Shown here: piece after piece, positions 4,418 through 29,240 of the stretch
Layout: each line of letters begins with the position of its first letter
Numbering within the stretch: the stretch's first letter is position 1
Origin: Deltaproteobacteria bacterium
Lineage (GTDB): Bacteria; Desulfobacterota; Binatia; Binatales; Binataceae
Reading direction: 5' to 3'
Length of the DNA stretch: 64,000 bases
NCBI GenBank assembly: GCA_021780755.1
Contig: JAJXYF010000022.1
Span: 1 to 64,000, forward strand
Made by a program: the position numbers and the translations under genes
Notes under the pieces: generated by a model
The model's database searches: none
What the model saw: only the letters and a program-made list of their open reading frames with translations
Told to the model about the DNA's origin: nothing

Positions 4418-5473
4418 TTAGGGGGATTCGGATTCGGCGGCGAGGAATTGGTCGAGGATGCGCAACATCATCGCGGGACCCGCGTCGTGGACGATACTGA
4501 GGCGGTTGCCGTCGGGCCGTTCCTTAACGTTGCGATGCTGCGCCTCGAGCATCGCCTTGTCCTCGAGAAAGGCCGCATCGACGCCCTCGCGCAACATATC
4601 GCTCAAGCCGGGTAAATCGGTGGCGACGCTGGAACCCCATGAGTAGTAATACTCGACATTGTCCTGGTCGACGGGCGTAACGGCCTGACACGAGTAGCTA
4701 TCGAGAATCAACTGGCCGTTGGAGGGACCTTCGGTGGCGGTGCCGGCGCTCCAGGCCTCGAAGTGGAGGATGAAATTGCAGGGCAGGGTGACGTCGACGT
4801 TCATGTGAATATCGAAGAGCATCGCGGGCGGGAAGAGATGCTGGGCGAAGGCGGGCGCCGGCGTACTGTACATCCAGAAGTCGCTATTGACGCCCCGTTC
4901 GAGGGGTGTGCGTTTGATTTTGGCGGTGACCCAGGCGGGGTTGCCGCCGAGCGTTTTGCGATGGATCCAGGTGAGATGGCTGAGATCCATCAGGTTGGCG
5001 ATTTCGAGGCGGTGGTTCGCCCGCACGGACATTTGCGAAGTCTTGATGTTCCAGTTTTTGTCGCTGGGGCCGATGGCGAAGGGGATGAGAGCGGGATCGG
5101 CCTTGGCGGGATCGCCCATCCAGACCCAGATCCAGTTATCGCGTTCGACGACCGGAAAGGTGCGGACGCGGGCCTGCGGCGGGATTTTTTCCTGGCCGGG
5201 GATTTCGATGCAGATGCCGTCGGGCCCGAACTTCATCCCGTGGTACATGCAGCGCAGCGCGTCGCCCTCTTTTTGGCCGAGATGAAGGGGGGCCTGGCGA
5301 TGGCAGCATCGGTCTTCCATCGCGACCACGGCGCCGTTGGGCTTGCGGTAGAGGACGAGGGGTTCGTTGGCGATGCGGCGGGCAAGGAGGGAGGTTTTGC
5401 CCTGGGTGAGATGGTAATCCCATCCGGCGCAGTACCAGCAATTTCTGACGAACATGTCGGAGCGGTGATTCAT
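4418..5473 (-). CDS. Rieske non-heme iron oxygenase, alpha subunit (vanillate demethylase/ring-hydroxylating type)
   Basis: Rieske motif CCHRQAPLHLG...CMYHGMKF and mononuclear iron motif NLMDLSHLTWIH. Confidence 0.93.
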   Translation of the reverse strand: MNHRSDMFVRNCWYCAGWDYHLTQGKTSLLARRIANEPLVLYRKPNGAVVAMEDRCCHRQAPLHLGQKEGDALRCMYHGMKFGPDGICIEIPGQEKIPPQARVRTFPVVERDNWIWVWMGDPAKADPALIPFAIGPSDKNWNIKTSQMSVRANHRLEIANLMDLSHLTWIHRKTLGGNPAWVTAKIKRTPLERGVNSDFWMYSTPAPAFAQHLFPPAMLFDIHMNVDVTLPCNFILHFEAWSAGTATEGPSNGQLILDSYSCQAVTPVDQDNVEYYYSWGSSVATDLPGLSDMLREGVDAAFLEDKAMLEAQHRNVKERPDGNRLSIVHDAGPAMMLRILDQFLAAESESP

Positions 5474-24719: not shown

Positions 24720-24974
24720 ATGGCTGAATTAAACGGCTCGCCCCAGACGAATGCCGCTCGGGATGATATCTTTACGATAAAGGAACTCTCCGAGCACCTG
24801 CGCGTCCATCCGACGACCATCTACCGCCTCCTGCGGCAGGGACGCCTCCCAGGATTTCGTGTCGGCAGTAATTGGCGCTTTAATCGCGCCGCGATCGAAC
24901 AATGGGAACGCACGCAGGTAGCCGGCTTCGAGCCGCCGGTGGCACGCGGCCGGCGCAAGCGCCACAACAACTAA
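24720..24974 (+). CDS. Helix-turn-helix (excisionase/MerR-type) DNA-binding protein
   Basis: FTIKELSEHLRVHPTTIYRLLRQGRLPGFRVGSNWRFNRAAIEQW. Confidence 0.92.
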   Translation: MAELNGSPQTNAARDDIFTIKELSEHLRVHPTTIYRLLRQGRLPGFRVGSNWRFNRAAIEQWERTQVAGFEPPVARGRRKRHNN

Positions 24975-25191: not shown

Positions 25192-26007
25192 ATGCCGACC
25201 AAGTACGCCGACGTGCGTGGCTACGCCACCTATTATTACTACGTGGGGAAGACCACGCTGCCTGACGTGGTGCCTGATTTCTCGCGCGGGCGAAAACTCA
25301 TTCTGATTCATGCGGCGGGCTCCAACGCTCACGCGTGGCATTACCAGTACGAGGCGCTGGGCGCGGCGCACAGCCCGATTGCGCCCGACCTGCCGGGACA
25401 TGGGCGCACGTCCGGCGTCGAGGCGCTGCCCTCGATCCAGGATTACGCCGACTTCGTGATCGCCTTTGCTGACGCGCTGAAGATCGATTCGGCGGTATTC
25501 GTCGGCCGCTCGATGGGCGGTGCGGTCGCGATGGACCTGGCGGTGCGCTATCCGAAGCGCGTGCAGGGACTGGTGCTGATGGCCACGGCGGCCAGGCTCA
25601 ACGTGCCCAAGGAGCGCATCGAGCAGTGGCGCGCAGTGACGATGGGGCGGGCCGGCCAACCGTTTACCAACGACGGCTACTCGCCGAAAACGATCGCCGA
25701 AAAGCGCGAAGTGATCCAGGAAGGGTGGGGCGAGCAAATCCGCACCGACCCACGCACGCGATGGGGCGATATGGTGGCGTGCGCGAATGTCGATCTGCGC
25801 AATCAACTGGGCGAGATTAACGCCCCGACGCTGGTGCTGGCGGGCGCCGACGACCAGGTGACGCCGCCGGCCGACGCCGAATTTGTTAAGAGCCGCATCA
25901 AGGGTGCGCGCCTCGAAGTGATCGCCGATGCCGCTCATAACCTGACCACCGAGCGGCCCGCCGAGGTCAACGCCGCGGTGGAAAAGTTTCTTGCCGAACT
26001 GAGATAG
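25192..26007 (+). CDS. Alpha/beta hydrolase
   Basis: KLILIHAAGSNAHAWHYQ; FVGRSMGGAVAMDLA; LVLAGADDQVTPP. Confidence 0.93.
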   Translation: MPTKYADVRGYATYYYYVGKTTLPDVVPDFSRGRKLILIHAAGSNAHAWHYQYEALGAAHSPIAPDLPGHGRTSGVEALPSIQDYADFVIAFADALKIDSAVFVGRSMGGAVAMDLAVRYPKRVQGLVLMATAARLNVPKERIEQWRAVTMGRAGQPFTNDGYSPKTIAEKREVIQEGWGEQIRTDPRTRWGDMVACANVDLRNQLGEINAPTLVLAGADDQVTPPADAEFVKSRIKGARLEVIADAAHNLTTERPAEVNAAVEKFLAELR

Positions 26008-26018
26008 GGAGCGCCCGC

Positions 26019-27179
26019 ATGAGTTTAAGCCGTAAATGCGCCGTCGTCGGCGCCTATGAGCATCCGACCCGCTTCGCCCCGGACAAGACCATGTATCAGA
26101 TCATGGCGGAGAGCATCCGGGGCGCGCTCGACGACTGCGGCCTGACGATCAAGGACGTCGATGGGCTGCTTACCGCCGGGATGGGTATGGGCGCGATGGC
26201 GATCGTAGGATTTTGCGACTATTTGAATCTGACGCCCAATTTTCTTGATTCGACCAATATCGGCGGGTCGTCCTTCGTTGCCCATACGGCGCATGCGGCG
26301 GCCGCGATCAACGCGGGCCTGTGCGAAGTCGCGGTGGTGGTGTACGGATCGACGGCGGCATCGTCGCGCTTCGCGATCGGCACGGGAGGCGGCGGCGGTG
26401 GCGGGGATCCGTGCGACCAGTACGAATTCCCGTTCGGACCGACGACCGTCGGCGCGTATGCAATGATCGCGCAGCGCCACATGCATGACTACGGCACTAC
26501 GCCGGAGCAACTCGCGGAAATCGCGGTGACGATGCGCCTGCACGCCTCGATGAATCCGGTGGCGAAGTATCGCGACCCGATCACGGTCGAGGACGTGCTC
26601 GCCTCGCGTGTCATCTCGTCGCCGCTGCATCTGCTGGACTGTTGCATCATCAGCGACGGCGGCGGCGCGTTGGTTATCACTTCGGCCGAACGCGCGCGGG
26701 ATTTGAAAAAGAAGCCCGCCTACATCCTGGGAGTGGGCGAGACCGTACGCCACGCCGCGCGCGGCCAGCGCGACTTCCTGGAGATTGCCGCGGCGCAATC
26801 CGGCCGCCTCGCGTTCGAGCGATCCGGCGTCGCGCACAAGGACATCGACATGGCGATGATCTACGACTCGTTCACGATCACCGTCTTGGCGACGCTCGAG
26901 AACCTGGGCTTCTGCAAGCGTGGCGAGGGCGGCGCGTTTGTCAGCGGCGGACGCTTGCGCTACGACGGCGACTTCCCGATCAACACGGACGGCGGCGGAC
27001 TTTCGTCGAACCATCCGGGGATGCGCGGGATGTTCCTGGTGATCGAGGCGGTCAAACAGTTGCGCGGCGAATGCGGTCCGCGCCAGGTCAAGGATTGTAA
27101 AATCGCGCTGGCGCATGGCACCGGCGGCGCGCTCGGCACCCGGCATTCGGGGGCGACCCTGATCCTGACCAATCAGTAA
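26019..27179 (+). CDS. Thiolase-fold protein, possible Ltp2-type retro-aldolase
   Basis: Thiolase/SCP2-type fold (YDSFTITVLATLE, HGTGGALGTRHSGATLIL). The nucleophile region reads TNIGGSSFVAHTAHAA without the usual Cys. Confidence 0.85.
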   Translation: MSLSRKCAVVGAYEHPTRFAPDKTMYQIMAESIRGALDDCGLTIKDVDGLLTAGMGMGAMAIVGFCDYLNLTPNFLDSTNIGGSSFVAHTAHAAAAINAGLCEVAVVVYGSTAASSRFAIGTGGGGGGGDPCDQYEFPFGPTTVGAYAMIAQRHMHDYGTTPEQLAEIAVTMRLHASMNPVAKYRDPITVEDVLASRVISSPLHLLDCCIISDGGGALVITSAERARDLKKKPAYILGVGETVRHAARGQRDFLEIAAAQSGRLAFERSGVAHKDIDMAMIYDSFTITVLATLENLGFCKRGEGGAFVSGGRLRYDGDFPINTDGGGLSSNHPGMRGMFLVIEAVKQLRGECGPRQVKDCKIALAHGTGGALGTRHSGATLILTNQ

Positions 27180-27226
27180 CTAACGAATTAGTGACTTGTC
27201 CCCAATTAGCGAGCGCGGAAAAAAAC

Positions 27227-27655
27227 ATGCCGCAGGATAAAAGCCCGAAAGCCTATCGCAAGCCGCTGCCCCATATCGACGAGGAGAGTCGTCCGTGGTG
27301 GGAGGCGGCGCAGCGCCACGAACTCTATATCCAGAAATGCCGCGACTGCGGCGACCTCCGGTTTCATCCGCGCGCGCTCTGCACCAGTTGCATGTCGGCG
27401 CGCACCGAATGGGTCCGCTGCAAAGGAACCGGGAAAATCTACACCTTCACCGTCACCAACCAGAACCAGGCCGGGGGCTTTCGCGACTCGCTGCCCTATA
27501 TAATGGCGTGGGTGGAAGTCGATGAAGGCCTGAAGATGCTCACCAACATTGTCGACTGCCCCCCGGAACAGGTTAAAATAGGCATGCCCGTCGAGGCCGT
27601 CTTCGACGACGTCACCCCCGAGGTGACGCTCGTGAAATTTCGCCCGGCGAGGTGA
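27227..27655 (+). CDS. DUF35/OB-fold zinc-ribbon protein
   Basis: YIQKCRDCGDLRFHPRALCTSCMSARTEWVRCKGTGKIYTFTV. Confidence 0.93.
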   Translation: MPQDKSPKAYRKPLPHIDEESRPWWEAAQRHELYIQKCRDCGDLRFHPRALCTSCMSARTEWVRCKGTGKIYTFTVTNQNQAGGFRDSLPYIMAWVEVDEGLKMLTNIVDCPPEQVKIGMPVEAVFDDVTPEVTLVKFRPAR

Positions 27656-27667
27656 GGTTCCTGCCGA

Positions 27668-28351
27668 GTGAGCACAACCCTTGACCTGCACAGCCATAGC
27701 GAGGCGTCCGAGGACAGCCGCGCGCCGTTGGAGGCCTACCTCAACTGGCTGAAGCTCAGAAGCACGGAGCGTCCGGTTGACGGTATCGTGCTGACCGAAC
27801 ATCGACAGTTCAATCAGAACGCGGACTACCGCGCGCTTGAGGACAAGTTCGGGATGCTGGTGCTGAAGGCCTCCGAGGTCGAGACCGACTACGGCCACGT
27901 GCTGGTCTTTGGGGTGACCGAAGAGATGACCCGGCGGTTCGATTTTGCCAACGTGCGTCTGCCGGCGCAGGAGGTAATCGACGAGATTGCGCGGATGGGC
28001 GGGGCCGCGATCCCGTGTCATCCGGGGCGTCCGAACGTCGGCCTCTGCGAACATTACACGAAGAAGCCGCCGCTCGAAAACGTGATCGCGGTGGAAGTGC
28101 TCAACGGCGGATCGCGCAAGGGCGAGGACGAACGCAGCGAGGCGCTGGTGCAACAATACGGCTATCGCGCGATCGGCGGATCGGACAGTCATCTGGTGAG
28201 CTTGATCGGACTTTGCGCGACGCGCTTTGACGCCGAAATCCGCACAACCGAAGACCTGGTGCGGGAGCTGCGCGGCGGCGCTTACGAACCGGTTGACTTC
28301 CGTCCGCGGCGCAAGCCGGTGCCGCAGGCGATCGCGGTTGAGGTGAAATAA
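27668..28351 (+). CDS. PHP-domain metal-dependent hydrolase (GTG start)
   Basis: TTLDLHSHSEASEDS; LTEHRQF; AIPCHPGRPN; AIGGSDSHLVSLIG. Confidence 0.88.
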   Translation: MSTTLDLHSHSEASEDSRAPLEAYLNWLKLRSTERPVDGIVLTEHRQFNQNADYRALEDKFGMLVLKASEVETDYGHVLVFGVTEEMTRRFDFANVRLPAQEVIDEIARMGGAAIPCHPGRPNVGLCEHYTKKPPLENVIAVEVLNGGSRKGEDERSEALVQQYGYRAIGGSDSHLVSLIGLCATRFDAEIRTTEDLVRELRGGAYEPVDFRPRRKPVPQAIAVEVK

Positions 28352-28352
28352 C

Positions 28353-28799
28353 ATGGCAGTCGATTACGACCCGGCGATCATCGGGCGCGTCTTTGAAACC
28401 ACCGACCCGCTGCCCGTTACGGCCGAGATGGTCAAGAATTTCTGCAGCGCGATCGGCGAGTCCAACCCGATCCATATCGATGCGGAGGCGGCCAAAAAAG
28501 GCCCGTATGGCGGGATAACCGCGCCACCGTCGTTCGCGGTGACGTTTCGTAACGGGCAGCATTTCTTCCAGCACGTGCCGCGCTACGGCAAGCAAGGCTT
28601 CGACGCCGGCAAGGACGTCGAATTCGTTGGGCCGATCCGGCCGGGCGACGCGATTTCGCTCAGTTCGCACGTCAAGGAGATCTACGAGAAGACCGGACGC
28701 ACCGGCTCGATGGTCTTCGTAATCGTGCGCAGCACATTGACCAACCAGAACGGCGAGGTCGTCGCCCATGTTGACCATAAATTCATGAACCGGACCTGA
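28353..28799 (+). CDS. MaoC-like (N-terminal domain type) dehydratase
   Basis: FCSAIGESNPIHIDAEAAKKGPYGGITAPPSFAVTF; near-overlapping with neighbours. Confidence 0.88.
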   Translation: MAVDYDPAIIGRVFETTDPLPVTAEMVKNFCSAIGESNPIHIDAEAAKKGPYGGITAPPSFAVTFRNGQHFFQHVPRYGKQGFDAGKDVEFVGPIRPGDAISLSSHVKEIYEKTGRTGSMVFVIVRSTLTNQNGEVVAHVDHKFMNRT

Positions 28800-28808
28800 G
28801 CGCGAGCC

Positions 28809-29240
28809 ATGGCAGAAAATAAAAGCGACCTGACCTTCGAAAGTGTAAAAATCGGCGATCCGCTTGGCCCGAGCGAATTTCATCTGAGCAAGGACCAGGT
28901 GCGCGCCTACGCCAGGACCACCGGTATGTGGGTGCCGCGGTTCACCGACGATGAGGCGGCGCGCAAGGAAGGGCTACCCGGCATGATCACGCCGGGCAAT
29001 ATGAGCCTCGCGATCCTGAGCAAACTGGTGACCGACTGGATTGGGGCGAGCGGCGCGCAACTGACGCGGATGGGCACGACCTATCGCCAGCCGGTGCTGC
29101 CCGATCATGCGATCACGCTACAAGGTTTCGTCACCGACAAGAACGAAAGCAATCATACGGCGGAGATGGATATCTGGCTCGAGAACGAGGACGGCGAGCG
29201 CCTCGTCATCGGCACGGCGACGGTGCATTTCCCACGCTAA
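28809..29240 (+). CDS. MaoC-like dehydratase
   Basis: SKDQVRAYARTTG...ARKEGLPGMITPGNMSLAILSKLVTDWIG...GTTYRQPVLPDHAITLQGFV. Confidence 0.88.
   Translation: MAENKSDLTFESVKIGDPLGPSEFHLSKDQVRAYARTTGMWVPRFTDDEAARKEGLPGMITPGNMSLAILSKLVTDWIGASGAQLTRMGTTYRQPVLPDHAITLQGFVTDKNESNHTAEMDIWLENEDGERLVIGTATVHFPR

Follow-up and report, generated by a model that had tools for sequence, protein, structure and literature searches.

Among DUF35-dependent enzymes with a thiolase fold, the aldolases Ltp2 and Sal are already known to lack the nucleophilic Cys. Thiolase fold and DUF35 are also combined in BbsAB (benzoylsuccinyl-CoA thiolase), the archaeal thiolase/HMG-CoA synthase/DUF35 system and PhlACB, which are Cys-dependent enzymes, whereas the protein described here has Gly. 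CtSal-CtShy(DUF35), available as PDB 9myr, is a bile-acid side-chain aldolase with the catalytic residues Tyr302/Cys304; Cys304 of its YDC motif is essential and the C304S variant is dead. TcLtp2 works with Tyr294/Tyr344, and the zinc site is of the C4 type in TcChsH2-DUF35 and of the C3H1 type in CtShy (PMC12329534). MaoC hydratases, in turn, use a catalytic Asp/His dyad (PMC11321319). The window analysed here is a stretch of 64,000 nucleotides; it represents contig C23 of a Binatota MAG with a size of 3.9 Mb, with Candidatus Binataceae / Binatota as the nearest named relatives. What looks new in it, judged from the sequence, is a thiolase-fold clade with a Tyr/Ser/His site (THL) together with a PHP protein and a dyad-less MaoC pair. 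We consider it moderately probable that the product of the cassette is a lyase module of retro-aldolase-like type, dependent on DUF35 and built on a Cys-less thiolase fold, with PHP as its steadiest partner.

The cassette consists of six head-to-tail genes (Table 1) with intergenic gaps of 1 to 47 bp. The tight order ABH, THL, DUF35, PHP, MaoC1, MaoC2 given in the preliminary description was confirmed by intact ORFs and Pfam matches, and the identical order of all six genes is seen again in 21 related loci. Such conservation exceeds chance and marks the cassette as a genuine unit; the genes bordering it vary more than the cassette itself. For DUF35, the ATG at 27227 is preferred over the GTG at 27191, going by the homologues. 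The HTH_17 protein encoded 217 bp upstream of the operon is a possible regulator; it precedes the cassette in most Binataceae loci and, among the distant loci L056-L062, in L061 only. A scan for sigma-70 promoters and terminators gave a signal no higher than in shuffled sequence. Some neighbourhoods were conspicuous in their own right. An MMPL transporter and TPP-enzyme subunits follow the cassette in L113 (12809-16721) and L056 (15865-21034), the latter also with a class-V aminotransferase, a set that resembles 2-aminoethylphosphonate-type genes. In L118 (G202:C72, 3657-9842) a second, distinct THL-DUF35 pair lies immediately upstream, likewise in L059 and L062.

Table 1. Genes of the cassette and the small gene preceding it, with their positions in the window.
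Feature	Description	Position	Strand	Family match
HTH_17	HTH_17/excisionase-type small DNA-binding protein	24720..24974	+	Pfam HTH_17 5.4e-16
ABH	alpha/beta hydrolase, first cassette gene	25192..26007	+	Pfam Abhydrolase 4.1e-26
THL	Cys-less thiolase-fold protein	26019..27179	+	Pfam Thiolase_C_1 3.7e-54
DUF35	zinc ribbon and OB fold, free-standing	27227..27655	+	OB_ChsH2_C 2.2e-23, zf-ChsH2 2.2e-11
PHP	PHP-fold metallohydrolase	27668..28351	+	Pfam PHP_C 2.1e-12
MaoC1	hot-dog protein	28353..28799	+	Pfam FAS1_DH/MaoC 1.5e-28
MaoC2	hot-dog protein	28809..29240	+	Pfam MaoC 1.2e-12

Alignment with real thiolases places Gly83 of the THL motif TNIGGSSF (residues 79-86) at the position of the nucleophilic Cys. 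Gly is found there in all THL relatives examined, so the earlier observation that this Cys is missing holds, and THL does not carry the Cys in CxS/CATG of biosynthetic and degradative thiolases. Like the broader Ltp2/Sal type, it combines a Cys-less thiolase fold with the Tyr of YDxF/Y, here Y282-D283-S284-F285, of which Y282 is invariant in 27 aligned sequences; His332 is part of NHPG. The host genome contains 11 THL homologues, three with CATG/CASG and HDCF as in real SCP2-type thiolases and eight, among them that of the window, in which this Cys is missing and the motif reads YDxF/YExF. The YDxF/acid residues of the eight Cys-less paralogues (L089-L098 and the window) are S/H, C/H, C/Q, A/Y, A/H, G/R and H/Y, an apparent diversification of DUF35-linked lyases in one genome.

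In a maximum-likelihood tree, the comparison with Ltp2 and SCP2 thiolases suggested beforehand, THL groups with Ltp2/Sal, and the Cys-less proteins are split from the Cys-thiolases with a support of 100/100. Ltp2 (6ok1 and the copy from a Vibrio chsH-ltp2 operon), Sal (9myr and a Vibrio sal-shy copy) and the window family, which contains 4u4e, form three separate, well supported clades, the window clade (100/99) lying beside Sal. The AlphaFold2 model of THL (pLDDT 88) ranks the folds in the order 4u4e > Sal-Shy > Ltp2-ChsH2 > all Cys-thiolases. Its closest functionally characterised structures are Sal-Shy(DUF35) and Ltp2-ChsH2(DUF35); BbsAB, the archaeal system and PhlACB are farther away in sequence as well as in fold ranking. 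Sequence, phylogeny and modelled fold agree in indicating that THL is of the aldolase type rather than a thiolase, an assignment that appears well supported. Its direct family comprises NCBIfam PRK06158/PRK08142 and PDB 4u4e (a Sphaerobacter 'thiolase'), with about 50% identity and the GG/YDSF/HPG motifs. Plasmid relatives of this family adjoin a DUF35 gene too, but outside Binatia they are not accompanied by a PHP/MaoC1/MaoC2 block. We know of no assayed activity for this family or for any member of the YDSF clade.

In the alignment Tyr282 coincides with the base Tyr common to Ltp2 and Sal, Ser284 with Cys304 of Sal, and His332 with Tyr344 of Ltp2, Gln352 of Sal and the thiolase His. Similar to CtSal-CtShy, the nearest functionally characterised fold, the window offers a thiolase fold that lacks the Cys, a predicted DUF35 partner and the catalytic Tyr of YDxY/F. 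With Ltp2-ChsH2(DUF35) and ChsH1 (PDB 6ok1) it shares the fold, the predicted DUF35 dependence, the C4 zinc site, the Tyr at the base position and a linked MaoC pair. The combination Tyr282/Ser284/His332 is nevertheless unlike that of either enzyme. THL is not a Sal proper, which has Tyr302/Cys304 and Gln352 and belongs to the Sal clade, and not an Ltp2 proper, which has YDHF instead of YDSF, Tyr344 as the acid and a clade of its own. Since CtSal C304S is dead and the YDSF clade has Ser at this position, the THL site must work differently from that of Sal. Most likely, THL and DUF35 would assemble into an alpha-beta-beta-alpha complex like those of Sal-Shy and Ltp2-ChsH2. Through (retro-)aldol chemistry, such a complex would break or form a C-C bond beside a CoA thioester. 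Tyr282 may serve as the base that deprotonates a beta-hydroxyacyl-CoA, acetyl- or acyl-CoA would depart as the enolate, and this could be reprotonated by His332, whose position matches the acid Tyr344 of Ltp2 and the thiolase His.

The DUF35 zinc site, C38-x2-C41-x10-C52-x2-C55, follows the canonical C-x2-C-x10-C-x2-C pattern, and in the PDB the protein best matches two DUF35 chains, 9myr_B from Sal-Shy and 6ok1_B from Ltp2-ChsH2. All ten zf-ChsH2 (DUF35) matches in the host genome adjoin a THL gene, the eleventh THL being located at a contig end; this genome-wide 1:1 pairing strengthens the link between the two proteins. THL and DUF35 distance matrices are correlated with r=0.81 over 18 pairs (0/2000 permutations) and with r=0.63 for the ten pairs within the host genome (10/5000 permutations). 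Pairing and correlated distances point towards a THL-DUF35 complex, as support rather than proof. The free-standing DUF35, to which the preliminary description had drawn attention, is indeed a separate gene here, but this is usual in the family. As a novelty it was rejected, annotated-plasmid relatives likewise carrying a separate OB-fold gene.

The most constant partner of THL is PHP, which had been named only in passing before. Among 147 Binatia genomes, which are related to one another and hence not independent, PHP occurs in 83, THL in 79 and MaoC2 in 76; PHP is present in 79/79 THL genomes and 76/76 MaoC2 genomes. Given the relatedness of the genomes, the Fisher p-value obtained for this co-occurrence is not to be taken as a probability. 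In 71 of the 79 THL genomes PHP lies on the strand of THL and at most 2 kb downstream of it, and six of the remaining eight are contig splits. Outside Binatia, neither THL nor PHP was found in any genome of a 148-genome phylum sample at the threshold used. In L058, L059 and L062, ABH-THL-DUF35-PHP is present and the MaoC pair missing, while SAR202/Dehalococcoidia loci contain THL-DUF35 only. As the MaoC pair is located elsewhere than THL in family f6 and in G042/G205 of f9, PHP is the tighter partner. A literature search for the gene combination of the cassette returned no description.

The PHP model (pLDDT 88) has PsfC 7rty and TM0559 2anu as top PDB folds. Together with this fold, a complete set of putative metal ligands (H8, H10, D16, H45, E70, H77, H118, E143, D173, H175), invariant in 21 orthologues, identifies a PHP metallohydrolase. 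Fold and ligand pattern resemble those of CehA/McbA and of PHP phosphoesterases such as PsfC and TM0559; the window protein differs in being tied to THL-DUF35, and with 71.9 bits it falls short of the 80 bits required for CehA/McbA. A phage-family scan of it gave no match. ABH takes the same cassette position in 26 loci. Its triad in the window is formed by the Ser of GRSMGG, D221 and H249, the latter two conserved to at least 95%; some lineages have a degenerate Ser elbow, which reads GHGLGG in L058/L062. PHP and ABH are probably hydrolases of the THL pathway that would act on its substrate or product. Neither has a counterpart in the Ltp2 operon.

A MaoC hydratase, as proposed in the preliminary description, is not what the family sequences indicate. 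MaoC2 lacks the Asp/His dyad in 32/32 sequences and always has Phe at the His position (Met40/Phe45 in the window). In MaoC1 the His is kept in 2/33, the window being one of the two (GESNPIH, Glu36/His41), and nearly all orthologues have Tyr or Phe there; the exchange of His for Tyr resembles the non-catalytic ChsH2 domain (PMC11321319). MaoC1 resembles the N-halves of double-hot-dog hydratases and MaoC2 HadB or the C-halves, so that a heterodimer is likely. Hot-dog fold and N/C-half pairing are retained, whereas a dyad in at least one subunit, in the style of ChsH1-ChsH2, is not found at family level: ChsH1 keeps it and MaoC2 does not, and in the Sal system DUF35 forms one polypeptide with a MaoC domain that is active. 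By its residues the pair is not a standard hydratase at family level, another chemistry being possible. Most likely, MaoC1 and MaoC2 would pair as a pseudo-double-hot-dog heterodimer without the standard dyad, which would either bind acyl-CoA or run another reaction. If it does not hydrate, the cassette would not make its own beta-hydroxy substrate; this, like the operon's lack of genes for an acyl-CoA ligase or dehydrogenase, weighs against the lyase module. Detached MaoC1-MaoC2 pairs were seen in f9 near a flavocytochrome-c/KstD-like flavoprotein and an LPG-synthase-TM-like protein (L119 1300-5745, L116 7598-11993), in L119 also near an acyltransferase. Tentatively, the YDSF/NHPG clade of bacteria and haloarchaea may represent a third class of DUF35-dependent thiolase-fold aldolases with a Tyr/His pair, in Binatia as the core of a new pathway with an obligate PHP and a hydratase-dead MaoC heterodimer.

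Several other assignments were weighed against the lyase module. A complete module, in which MaoC1-MaoC2 hydrates an enoyl-CoA and THL-DUF35 cleaves the product by retro-aldol reaction, on a steroid or steroid-like side chain as in ChsH1-ChsH2-Ltp2, agrees in its component types, in the N-half/C-half likeness of the two MaoC proteins and in the ChsH2-like Tyr of MaoC1. Moreover, some other THL-DUF35 loci of the host genome are Ltp2-like or Sal-like, and the genome encodes two dioxygenases resembling BphC/HsaC. We regard this assignment as unlikely: the expected catalytic partner MaoC2 has neither Asp nor His, THL falls outside the Ltp2 and Sal clades, both host dioxygenases score far below the HsaC cut-off, and no steroid ring-degradation genes are present within the cassette. 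The BphC/HsaC-like extradiol dioxygenase, the one ring-degradation marker scored genome-wide, is absent from 40/83 cassette genomes, 29 of these being at least 90% complete. The steroid analogy offered earlier as a substrate clue was thereby not sustained, and a steroid link via HsaC/BphC was rejected, about half of the cassette genomes being without the dioxygenase. Of the earlier reading, the aldolase-type THL and its pairing with DUF35 stand, but the MaoC hydratase and the steroid clue do not. The main Binatota genome paper nowhere mentions steroid, thiolase or sterol (PMC8262859). Elsewhere in the host genome, L095 (G000:C38:9500-29000) encodes an Ltp2-like THL (YEHF, ECY; 259 bits to TcLtp2) with DUF35, next to an enoyl-CoA hydratase, two CoA-transferase-fold proteins, LLM oxidoreductases and an ETF pair; compared with the window, it is the better candidate for a cluster of ring or side-chain catabolism. 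L090 (G000:C15:1-12000) carries a Sal-like THL (YDCY, FGQPG) with free DUF35. In the window itself, a Rieske/VanA_C oxygenase at 4421-5473 (-) has 4beta-methylsterol monooxygenase as its sole NCBIfam match, at 92 bits vs a cut-off of 600.

A similarly improbable reading makes THL a thiolase of the degradative kind, or an acyltransferase, with another nucleophile, e.g. Ser84/Ser85. The NCBIfam names (acetyl-CoA acetyltransferase, one model above cut-off, or thiolase domain-containing) and the retained His332 and thiolase fold would suit such an enzyme; Gly83 is invariant, however, Ser84 varies to Ala/Gly within the clade, the aldolase-like YDSF replaces the thiolase HDxF, and phylogeny and fold ranking favour Ltp2/Sal. 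Quite unlikely, finally, is a biosynthetic module in which THL-DUF35 works in the forward aldol/Claisen direction, adding an acyl-CoA to an aldehyde or a ketone, and PHP and ABH finish a lipid or secondary metabolite. DUF35 does serve biosynthetic complexes too (PhlACB, thiolase/HMG-CoA synthase), the operon is free of acyl-CoA ligase and catabolic dehydrogenase genes, and the flavoprotein, LPG-synthase-like protein and acyltransferase near the detached MaoC pairs of two f9 genomes would be in line with it. Both characterised Cys-less relatives are degradative, however, and outside Binatota the plasmid THL-DUF35 orthologues (Roseovarius, Delftia, Variovorax, M. branderi, Halomarina) are found in catabolic clusters with acyl-CoA dehydrogenases, CoA ligases/transferases, enoyl-CoA hydratases and SDRs, neighbours that favour acyl-CoA catabolism.

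If the assignment as a lyase module is true, a large family filed as 'acetyl-CoA acetyltransferase' in NCBI would consist of C-C lyases, and the active site of the THL clade would differ from those of both known DUF35-dependent aldolases. The cassette would also provide a case of a MaoC pair that is retained while the standard hydratase residues are gone from both partners. For the Binatota, a yet-uncultured phylum, it would add a concrete, conserved and testable module.
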